Origin: Chloroflexota bacterium
GTDB lineage: Bacteria; Chloroflexota; Anaerolineae; Anaerolineales; Villigracilaceae
Direction of reading: 5' to 3'
NCBI GenBank assembly: GCA_019873655.1
Contig: JAIOAU010000002.1
Location: 1-64,000 of the forward strand
DNA length: 64,000 bases
The position numbers were made by a program, and so were the translations under genes. The notes beneath the pieces are model-generated. The model did no database searches. It saw only the letters and a list, made by a program, of their open reading frames with translations, and was not told where the DNA came from. Numbering within the stretch: position 1 is the first letter of the stretch; the number at the start of each line of letters is the position of its first letter. Below are positions 14,976-60,642 of this stretch, one piece after another.

Positions 14976-15107
14976 GGAGAGACCTCCAGACAGGGGTTTC
15001 GCCTGCTTCGAAAGGCAGATAGCGGGGAGTATACTCCAGGTTTTGCCTCGCATCGGGCGAATTTTGCGAAAAAGTTCGAGACCTTCATGAGATTCGAGGC
15101 TTCAACG

Positions 15108-26155: not shown

Positions 26156-26679
26156 AAAAAATCCGTTTCCATCCGTGAGTCCGCGACCGAGTCCGTTGCC
26201 CGCAATCCGTTTCCATCCGTGAGTCCGTGACCGAGTCCGTTGACGAAATCCGTTCCCATCTGTGAGTCCGTGACCGAGTCCGTTGACGAAATCCGTTCCC
26301 ATCCGTGAGTCCGTGACCAAGTCCGTTGACGAAATCCGTTTCCATCCATGAGTCCGTGATCAAGTCCGTTGACCGCAATCCGTTTCCATCCGCGAGTCCG
26401 TGACCAAGTCCGTTGCTCGCAATCCGTTCCCATCCGTGAGTCCGTGACCAAGTCCGTTGCCCGCAGTCCGTTTCCATCCGCGAGTCCGTGACCAAGTCCG
26501 TTGCTCGCAATCCGTTCCCATCCGTGAGTCCGTGACCAAGTCCGTTGCCCGCAATCCGTTCCCATCCGTGAGTCCGCGACCAAGTCCGTTGACCGCAATC
26601 CGTTTCTATCCGCGAGTCCGCGACCAAGTCCGTTGACCGCAATCCGTTTCTATCCGCGAGTCCGCGACCAAGTCCGTTG
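26156..26679. repeat. Tandem array, 12 copies of a 43-44-bp unit
   Basis: The unit is roughly AATCCGTTYCCATCCGTGAG followed by TCCGTGACCAAGTCCGTTGN and a 3-4-base junction. It itself contains four TCCGT blocks. Copies differ at a few positions, and three junction types occur (GACGA, GACCG, GCYCG). The array runs from the YeiH stop codon to the ATG of the AlkZ-related gene, leaving no other intergenic DNA. There are no spacers, so it is not CRISPR. Minus-strand open frames in this stretch are repeat-generated. Confidence 0.95.
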
Positions 26680-27534
26680 ATGATCGACCTCGACAAACTC
26701 AAAGTCTACCGCGCCTGGACATACCGTTTGCCGCCTCACCGGCCGATTGCCAACAGCGAGGCGGCGGTGGATTACGTCAACGAACGCGGCTTCGTTTACT
26801 TCTGGCCGGTCAAGGGGATAGAATTGCCCTCCTTGTGGACGGCCGTCGCCGGCGACCGGCCGGTGGCCGACGAACACGATGACCCCGGCCACATCACCTG
26901 GGGCTGGAAGGATGAGTCGCTTGACAAGCGCTGGTGGTATTATGCCAAAATCCTGCGCCGCAAGGCGACCTTCATTTCCCTGGAAATTGCTCCGTACTTC
27001 TATGCCCTTTCGGAGAATTTTGGCTCTCCCGAAGAGGATTACCTCGTCGCCTATGAGGAAGGCCGACTGACCCAGGCGGCGAAGCAGGTCTACGAAGCGT
27101 TGCTCGACAAAGGTCCGCTGGACACGATTTCGCTGCGCAAGGAAGCGCGGTTGCAAAACGCCAAGGAATCCGTCTTCAACCGCGCTCTGGAGGACTTGCA
27201 GGCCGATTTCAAAATTCTGCCGGTCGGCATTGCCGAGGCGGGAGCGTGGCGCTACGCCTATCGTTACGACATCACCGCCCGTCATTTCCCCGACCTGCCC
27301 GAACAGGCGCGGCCGATCGGCGAGGCCGAAGCCCGCGCCAAACTTGTGGAACTCTACTTTCGTTCGGTGGGCGCCGCCCAGAGCCGCGACCTGGTCAGAC
27401 TCTTCGGCTGGACGCCTGAACTCGTCCGGCGGACGACTGCCCGCCTGGTCGCCTCCGGCTTGTTGGTGGACGGTCTTGCCCATCCCCGGCTGCCCGGCGA
27501 ATGGCTGGCGCTGGCAGAGTTGACAACGAACTGA
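26680..27534 (+). CDS. AlkZ-related winged-helix protein (YcaQ/HTH_42-like)
   Basis: A 284-residue protein with similarity to the AlkZ/YcaQ superfamily of winged-helix DNA glycosylases. Landmarks are the N-terminal YRAWTYRLPP, a TWGWKDESL segment, LTQAAKQVYEALLDKGPL and RLFGWTPELVRRTTARLV. Catalytic Gln motifs of true AlkZ are not obvious, so activity is uncertain. ATG 26680 directly abuts the repeat array and lacks any Shine-Dalgarno; a TTG just before it could also serve. It may be a DNA-repair or DNA-binding factor. Confidence 0.7.
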   Translation: MIDLDKLKVYRAWTYRLPPHRPIANSEAAVDYVNERGFVYFWPVKGIELPSLWTAVAGDRPVADEHDDPGHITWGWKDESLDKRWWYYAKILRRKATFISLEIAPYFYALSENFGSPEEDYLVAYEEGRLTQAAKQVYEALLDKGPLDTISLRKEARLQNAKESVFNRALEDLQADFKILPVGIAEAGAWRYAYRYDITARHFPDLPEQARPIGEAEARAKLVELYFRSVGAAQSRDLVRLFGWTPELVRRTTARLVASGLLVDGLAHPRLPGEWLALAELTTN

Positions 27535-27540
27535 TTAGGT

Positions 27541-27607
27541 AAAAGCATCGAATTTCGCGAATTCTCCAAATCTTTTTTTGTAAAATTCGTGTCATTCGAT
27601 GCTGAAA
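27541..27607. repeat. Inverted pair of the GCATCGAAT dispersed repeat
   Basis: GCATCGAAT (27545-27553) faces its complement ATTCGATGC (27594-27602). Each arm continues with divergent CGCGAAT/CACGAAT sequence, and a T7 run lies in the loop. The arms match the 38-bp unit of the array near 60.4 kb. It lies between convergent genes and could also act as a terminator. Confidence 0.7.
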
Positions 27608-27667
27608 AGCCGCAACGCGCCAGCCGCGGCAAAAGGTTGTATCACCTCAACTTGATTCTCTGCTGGT

Positions 27668-33745: not shown

Positions 33746-33780
33746 GCATTGAATGGTGTGAATTGCGCGAAACAATTCGT
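33746..33780. repeat. Divergent solo copy of the GCATCGAAT repeat
   Basis: GCATTGAATGGTGTGAATTG continues with CGCGAAACAATTCGTG, related to the 38-bp unit at 60.4 kb. It lies just upstream of the metA ribosome site inside the metY-metA message. Confidence 0.45.
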
Positions 33781-33861: not shown

Positions 33862-33910
33862 GAATCGAATTGCGCGAAATCTTTGCATCGAATTGCACGA
33901 ATTGCGAGAA
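33862..33910. repeat. Two adjacent solo copies of the GCATCGAAT repeat
   Basis: GAATCGAATTGCGCGAAAT (from 33862) and GCATCGAATTGCACGAAT (from 33885), closely matching the 38-bp array unit near 60.4 kb. Confidence 0.65.
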
Positions 33911-33912
33911 AT

Positions 33913-33985
33913 GAACTGCGCAAATCGGAGATTTGTGCCACGGAGTGAAACGAACTGCGCAAGTCGGAGATTTGCGCCACGGCGT
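33913..33985. repeat. Two 39-bp direct repeats, each a small hairpin
   Basis: GAACTGCGCAARTCGGAGAT followed by TTGYGCCACGG occurs at 33913 and 33952. Inside each, CGCAARTC-GGA-GATTTGYG can fold. The second copy runs up to the metY stop codon. Confidence 0.7.
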
Positions 33986-35407: not shown

Positions 35408-35532
35408 CTCTCATCTTCCAGAATTCGGACGACCACCAGGGTCATCCCTTACTGCCGGAATTGGCACCGTTCCTTTGCAGGATGGTTGCCGAGGCTTCAC
35501 AGGGCCGGTCCCTCCGCCTCTCTGGATAAGAG
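35408..35532 (-). ncRNA. SAM-I (S-box) riboswitch
   Basis: On the minus strand the 125-nt aptamer starts CTCTTATCCAGAGAGGCGGA and ends GAAGATGAGAG, which close helix P1. Conserved internal stretches are GGGACCGGCCC, TGAAGCC, GGCAACC and GGTGCCAATTCC with GCAG. The order and content match the S-box consensus. It controls metY-metA-aminotransferase. Confidence 0.96.
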
Positions 35533-49407: not shown

Positions 49408-49440
49408 GTAAAAGCATCGAATTACACGAACAGCACGAAT
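49408..49440. repeat. Solo copy of the GCATCGAAT repeat
   Basis: TAAAAGCATCGAATTACACG continues with AACAGCACGAAT. TAAAAGCATCGAATT is also found at 27540. It lies between the convergent LysM copy 3 and OsmC genes. Confidence 0.65.
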
Positions 49441-60355: not shown

Positions 60356-60642
60356 GCATCGGATTTCACGAATGATGAATGGTTGCATCGAATTGCGCGA
60401 ATGTCACGAACGATGAATGGTTGCATCGAATTGCGCGAATGTCACGAACGATGAATGGTTGCATCGAATTGCGCGAATGTCACGAACGATGAATGGCGGC
60501 ATCGAATTGCGCGAATGTCACGAACGATGAATGGCGGCATCGAATTACGCGAATGTCACGAACGATGAATGGTTGCATCGAATTGCACGAATTTCGCGAA
60601 CGATGAATAGCAGCATCGAATTGCGCGAATGTCACAAACGAT
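60356..60642. repeat. Tandem array of the 38-bp GCATCGAAT unit
   Basis: Six full 38-bp units start at 60385, 60423, 60461, 60499, 60537 and 60575, flanked by a 29-bp deleted unit (60356) and a 30-bp partial unit (60613). The unit reads GCATCGAATTGCGCGAATGT then CACGAACGATGAATGGTT. Only about ten positions vary. There are no spacers. Solo relatives lie at 27.5, 33.7-33.9 and 49.4 kb. The array fills the gap between GH5 and the YwaF-like gene. Confidence 0.95.

Follow-up and report, generated by a model that had tools for sequence, protein, structure and literature searches.

A short intergenic repeat family and the GxxExxY genes that it brackets in a Chloroflexota genome: a possible REPIN-RAYT-like system with a predicted Cas4-like nuclease

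We have found that a short intergenic repeat of this Chloroflexota genome, dispersed as solo units, direct arrays and inverted pairs, also stands in inverted orientation on both sides of genes coding for GxxExxY proteins. The bracketing, its polarity, its specificity when compared with control genes and the co-inheritance of unit and protein are described below, together with inverted pairs that share this polarity, hold no gene and are dispersed over the genome, and with arrays that grew locally. The interpretation that we prefer, with a probability of roughly 0.6, is that the unit family represents the inverted arms of a GxxExxY element, in a system resembling REPIN-RAYT that would be built on a Cas4-like nuclease.

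The repeat unit in the window and in the genome

The window, by which we mean the whole 64-kb stretch of DNA analyzed, had been described from its sequence as containing a tandem array, an inverted pair and dispersed solo copies of one unit, and these are real. Searching for GCATCGAATTGCGCGAAT with up to 3 mismatches we found 13 places, against 0.14 expected and a highest value of 2 in 100 shuffles. They are located at 27545 (+), 27585 (-), 33862, 33885 and 49414, the other eight being in the array (Table 1), for which TRF gave 60366-60642 with a period of 38, 7.3 copies and 92% matches, the degenerate first copy starting at 60356. The copy at 33746, GCATTGAATGGTGTGAAT, has 4 mismatches to the unit and is still recognisable. 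The copies had been considered intergenic, and at the sites checked the flanking genes are indeed supported by Pfam: GH5 cellulase and TMEM164 at the array of 60356-60642, a homoserine O-succinyltransferase (start around 33729, minus strand) and a Cys/Met PLP enzyme at the 33.7-33.9 kb copies, a LysM-domain gene and OsmC at the 49.4 kb copy and, at 27.5 kb, one neighbour only, with an AIRS match, the other having no Pfam match. Some of the window copies are overlapped by mechanical ORFs. Beside the two direct units following the 33746 copy there are two near-identical 39-bp direct copies (33908-33982) whose kinship with the unit is not obvious. Rfam at gathering threshold detected over the whole window a SAM riboswitch (35408-35532, upstream of the Cys/Met PLP enzyme gene), one tRNA and nothing else.

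Table 1. Repeat features of the window and GxxExxY genes of the same genome with their arms
Feature	Position	Strand	Remarks
Direct array, 38-bp unit, eight cores (first degenerate)	60356..60642	+	TRF and mismatch search; unit GCATCGAAT-TGCGCGAAT-GTCACGAAC plus site-specific spacer GATGAATGGTT
MITE-like copy, one outer end lost	27540..27651	-	Among the 18 aligned pair copies
Inner inverted pair of the former	27545-27562, 27585-27602	+, -	
Degenerate solo unit	33746..33763	+	Adjoins homoserine O-succinyltransferase gene, upstream side
Two direct units	33862..33902	+	33862-33879 and 33885-33902
Solo unit	49414..49431	+	Between convergent LysM-domain (+) and OsmC (-) genes
Degenerate inverted pair	15045..15100	.	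GCCTCGCAT... / ...ATTCGAGGC; absent from the sequence-only reading
Second array, 44-bp unit, 11.9 copies	26160..26680	-	TRF; ATCCGTG/CACGGAT variant
GxxExxY gene	C14:65007		Arms GCATCGAAT...ATTCGATGC, variant of window array 60356-60642
GxxExxY gene	C14:62657		Arms GCCACGAAT...ATTCGTGGC
GxxExxY gene	C14:59628		Arms GCCACAGATT...AATCTGTGGC
GxxExxY gene	C17:36964		Arms of CACGAAG/CTTTGTG type; extra inward copy on left
GxxExxY gene (L196)	C12:1634		Arms of CACGGAT/ATCCGTG type; missed by strict motif

Nor are the copies confined to the window, which would have told against the sequence-only reading. The genome-wide search that it had proposed gave 104 matches (62+42) with up to 2 mismatches in the 3.04-Mb genome and 0 in the reversed-letter control. 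A broader form, TTCGYGNNATTCGNKGC, appeared at 149 places (control 0), a number at the copy level of REP-RAYT repeats (about 100 or more). In one reading direction the unit consists of successive 8-10-bp words, GCATCGAAT - TGCGCGAAT - GTCACGAAC, and its core, examined by eye in the copies listed, repeats 9-bp words directly, with neither palindrome nor GTAG-type tag. In the sequence flanking 109 GxxExxY loci, the word CRCRRAK recurred at spacings of 8, 9 and 10 bp in 85, 147 and 60 cases, with 11 in total at 11-15 bp; the reversed-letter control had 28 pairs in all, counting every spacing up to 30. The 59 clusters of the fetched genome stretches included solos, direct arrays and inverted pairs, and both orientations were found in 20 of them by the strict pattern and in 36 when up to 6 mismatches were accepted in the second arm.

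The inverted pair had been likened to a miniature element, and the comparison holds for the genome: 18 pair copies can be aligned along some 145 bp, with both outer ends kept in seven or eight (by eye). In this MITE-like form, each side of the units has about 45 bp of common DNA, with an outer inverted repeat of its own, GATTCAACCTTTTTGCTGC, of 19 bp, so that the units are not the extreme ends of the piece. No gene with the outer repeat was identified among those of the 16 repeat matches examined, and inspection of the aligned copies by eye gave no consistent target-site duplication.

In eight arrays, two of them being both flanks of the C14:65007 gene, the core is common and the spacer is not. 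Spacer identity was 0.75 within arrays, 0.40 between arrays and 0.37 after shuffling, and this site specificity indicates that the arrays grew where they stand; inside the array of 60356-60642 the spacers are near-identical. The possibility of a CRISPR array was rejected since unique spacers are expected there and these are alike within arrays. The window array of 26160-26680 is homologous to those flanking the GxxExxY gene of C12 (alignment score 114, shuffle maximum 24), and that of 60356-60642 is of the C14:65007 variant, hence the two large arrays of the window correspond to two different paralogs.

The relative G038 belongs to the same genus, with 90-94% identity in the aligned parts. At the orthologous site of the 60356-60642 array about 147 bp replace 1122 bp; both the array and the TMEM164 gene are missing, and a single GCCACGAAT-type unit is found with CTTTGTG/CTTCGTG words. 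Therefore the array is not conserved even inside the genus. Orthologous sites in Flavobacterium also showed quick local turnover, and no clean empty site was found among them. One orthologous intergenic site can carry different unit families, both in the Flavobacterium pairs and in G038.

The GxxExxY genes and their predicted nuclease

There are six GxxExxY matches (TIGR04256/PF13366) in the genome, all above the family cut-off, from 148 to 68 bits. Five of the six genes stand between inverted copies of a unit variant that is particular to each, and are located on contigs other than that of the window (Table 1); the sixth and weakest match (68 bits, on C8) has no arms. The sequence-only reading had proposed a short dispersed element with no protein of its own. 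The first part stands, and for the second the GxxExxY gene bracketed by the unit now provides a candidate. At C12:1634 the two flanks align to each other with a score of 52, the next best value among 34 other loci being 23; the frame of this gene is open for 564 codons, through the right repeat arm. The stretch C14:58128-66851 holds three GxxExxY paralogs (L192, L193 and L194) with three unit variants in about 6 kb, and pairs of GxxExxY genes separated by 2-3 kb are also found in G006:C9, G038:C80 and G055:C197.

The protein of C14:65007 matches TIGR04256 with 148 bits and PF13366 with 143 bits, above the curated cut-off. In all 13 aligned proteins E23, Y26, D62, E72, K74, Q86 and Y90 are invariant, in the order E..D..ExK..QxxxY, which resembles the motifs of RecB-type nucleases. 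A sequence search for a solved structural relative gave none. We have used an AlphaFold model of the Flavobacterium panici protein, made with a five-sequence alignment (pLDDT 90.8, pTM 0.84). The nearest fold to the model was SSO0001 (4ic1), a Cas4, with an E value of 3e-4 and a TM of 0.56 by query, followed by LHK-Exo and lambda exonuclease with E values of 0.003-0.009. From the conserved residues and the predicted fold, GxxExxY is a predicted nuclease of the PD-(D/E)XK family. It appears similar to Cas4 and lambda exonuclease (RecB-type) in modeled fold and motif order, but differs from them in standing alone, with a length of about 125 residues, and in having repeats on both sides of its gene.

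Bracketing and co-inheritance in other genomes

Since N runs and coding repeats disturbed a flank-to-flank alignment of the loci, a motif-polarity count was used instead, the bracket being defined as CRCRRAK-N1-4-CRCRRAK with the right polarity within 400 bp of the gene. The form of this motif was picked after viewing 35 loci, which therefore constitute the discovery set; here a right-polarity pair was found on at least one side in 30/35 and on both sides in 20/35. A fresh set of 80 Chloroflexota loci, from the same phylum search and in part sharing genomes with the discovery set, gave 58/80 and 37/80 respectively, with wrong polarity on both sides in 2/80; at 22 of these 80 loci the motif as written was not found. 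In a third set of 27 loci, from eight family genomes chosen for holding the CGATGC form, and omitting two of 29 new loci (L376 and L386, duplicates of L307 and L353), the values were 20/27 and 11/27. Wrong-polarity copies on at least one side were seen at 11/35, 13/80 and 2/27 loci, and the C17 paralog, on its left, was one of the cases. As for the control genes, the bracket was found in 0/30 for TIGR02436 and 1/30 for ribosomal L12.

The TIGR02436 four-helix protein, a candidate for sharing such repeat contexts, was rejected as a partner on these 0/30 loci. There are nine TIGR02436 (23S IVP-type) genes in this genome, and for one of them (L241) the 3.3 kb examined were free of the motif.

On named contigs, all five GxxExxY genes (three of Flavobacterium, one of Herpetosiphon and one of Chloracidobacterium), taken from 119 stretches selected for holding one unit form, are armed on both sides. 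In Flavobacterium sp. MFBS3-15 the arms are at most about 15 bp from both gene ends, which makes a whole element of about 465 bp. An IMG/VR contig (L396) carries a GxxExxY gene with CCACGAAA-type arms on both sides, and a left array copy also repeats the apparent gene start (both by eye).

We have examined co-inheritance over a tree of 105 GxxExxY proteins (10 of 115 were dropped for stops, short length or wrong frame), with class counts for the 79 of 105 loci kept after leaving out those without motif or with a tie. The class of the last letters of the unit, -AT or -AG, changed 2 times over the 79 loci, against a mean of 23.4 and a minimum of 18 in shuffles. The fifth, fourth and second letters changed 8, 10 and 15 times, with shuffle means of 27.0, 26.9 and 25.2. 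On a tree thinned to less than 60% identity (n=20) the result was weaker, with 2 changes of the -AT/-AG class against a mean of 6.5 and a minimum of 2, and the full 7-letter unit gave no signal there (14 changes against 15.7). A rule that NFG proteins go with -AT units proved only partly valid, as 12 of the 32 fresh NFG loci for which a class was available went against it. The co-inheritance could reflect linkage instead of recognition.

Among 400 genomes of the phylum, GxxExxY was found in 16 of the 20 with TTCGTGNNATTCGTGGC and in 59 of the 380 others (Fisher 1.5e-9), the two tallies coming from two draws of 400 genomes that match among those listed. The remaining 4 of the 20 had no GxxExxY match, one (G226) with 5 copies and three with 1. 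Specifically for the CGATGC form, the copy numbers in 61 family genomes were 124 in this genome (G000), 25 in G015, 16 in G006 and at most 3 in the others. GxxExxY was found in all eight of G006, G015, G029, G035, G036, G038, G046 and G055, with a CGATGC unit beside the gene in G006 (where the pattern was seen on one side of the gene only), G015 and G055. The G055 gene has a stop codon inside, in a genome that is 66% complete and has 1 unit. An intact CGATGC-flanked gene was thus present in 3 of 9 checked genomes, precisely the three rich in CGATGC, and their proteins (L192, L225 and L375) form one clade (99*); this relation between copy number and intact gene comes from a small sample of three related genomes.

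Origin and meaning of the repeat family

The element that we propose would have the layout of two or three 8-10-bp words, the GxxExxY gene and the same words inverted. The nuclease would recognise its own words and cut there, and the cut would lead, through host repair, to copying or excision of the pair. Gene-less pairs could thereby be mobilised in trans by GxxExxY and spread in a REPIN-like way, the solo units would be remnants, and the arrays would enlarge at a resident unit by break repair or unequal exchange. The weak step is the insertion of DNA by a lone PD-(D/E)XK nuclease, for which a homing-like route via break repair is a possibility.

The main rival of mobilisation in trans puts the repeats first, GxxExxY being a homing-type nuclease gene that enters pre-existing inverted pairs and does not spread them, with the gene-less pairs as empty targets. 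PD-(D/E)XK homing nucleases exist, the gene fits between the arms with little spare DNA, and the different unit families at one orthologous site go in the same direction; however, this explanation alone does not account for the 124, 25 and 16 copies in the genomes with an intact gene, nor for the MITE-like subfamily of 18 aligned rows, and we consider it unlikely. It seems less probable still that the units serve in regulation, as operators or 5'-leader elements recognised by GxxExxY or by some other factor, and that they multiplied because of what they do to expression. Between genes that run the same way, unpaired clusters do follow the downstream gene in orientation in 11 of 13 cases (p=0.02, once a miscalled site and the pairs whose second arm is degenerate had been removed; the uncleaned count was 20 of 23), and several units are directly before a Shine-Dalgarno and ATG. 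But the gene calls behind this count were home-made, with at least one error (49.4 kb), both orientations coexist in those 36 of 59 clusters with the relaxed second arm, and GxxExxY genes are armed downstream too, not just upstream.

Close to the sequence-only reading, of past mobility or gene conversion of an element with no protein of its own, is an explanation by passive repeats, generated by recombination, gene conversion or slippage with no dedicated protein, and tandem arrays with site-specific spacers do resemble local duplication. The bracketing of specifically one protein family (0/30 and 1/30 in controls) and the co-inheritance of unit and protein on the tree make this very doubtful as an explanation of the family. 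The same reading had pointed to a REP-type tyrosine transposase as the possible partner, that is, to a REP/BIME family moved by a RAYT-type Y1 enzyme. The genome does contain five Y1_Tnp genes, and pairs and solos look like REPINs and REPs, but none of the five (0/5) has a unit in the 3.0-5.0 kb stretches around it (one of which ends 0.5 kb past the gene, at the contig end), so the flanking repeats predicted for a RAYT failed to appear, and the core of the unit is a direct word repeat and no tagged palindrome. We give this partner hardly any credit.

Nunvar 2010 (PMC2817692) and Bertels and Rainey 2011 (PMC3116915) describe REPIN-RAYT systems as high-copy extragenic repeats found as solos, inverted doublets and clusters, with the nuclease gene located between two inverted repeat copies and several gene-repeat pairs per genome. 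The likeness to our GxxExxY elements lies in the copy forms, the inverted bracketing of a nuclease gene and the several gene-repeat pairs per genome. The differences are the enzyme, Y1/HUH there and a predicted PD-(D/E)XK here, the repeat, a tagged palindrome there and a run of 8-10-bp direct words here, and the letters of the unit, which here differ per paralog. By analogy, then, the system would be REPIN-RAYT-like in its working and outside that class by its enzyme and its lack of a tagged palindrome. IS-derived MITEs are similar in being short, non-coding, dispersed at unrelated sites and provided with terminal inverted repeats; in contrast with them, no consistent target-site duplication was seen here by eye and no parent with the outer repeat appeared among the matches read. 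The GxxExxY elements share the inner unit of the MITE-like form. GxxExxY is named in PMC8934634, in a passing mention. A description of the association between GxxExxY and repeats was not found among the papers listed in the literature searched, with preprints and most subscription journals outside it, and searches with the repeat strings gave nothing related to the unit.

The same pairing of unit and GxxExxY in other bacterial groups suggests a mobile element of a kind not described so far. We would put at even odds the broader proposal of a widespread undescribed class, driven by a small PD-(D/E)XK nuclease similar to Cas4 and lambda exonuclease, whose cognate 8-10-bp words, spread in trans in the form of hairpin pairs, solos and arrays, would account for much of the anonymous intergenic repeat content in Chloroflexota, Bacteroidota, Acidobacteriota and others. 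The orphan nuclease family TIGR04256 gains in this way a context and a testable role, and short intergenic repeat families with no known mover gain a possible source. If true, this would be a second, independent arrangement of the REPIN-RAYT type, using a class of enzyme from which DNA movement would not be expected without help, and the many unit-protein pairs, several per genome, would be natural material for a DNA-recognition code.
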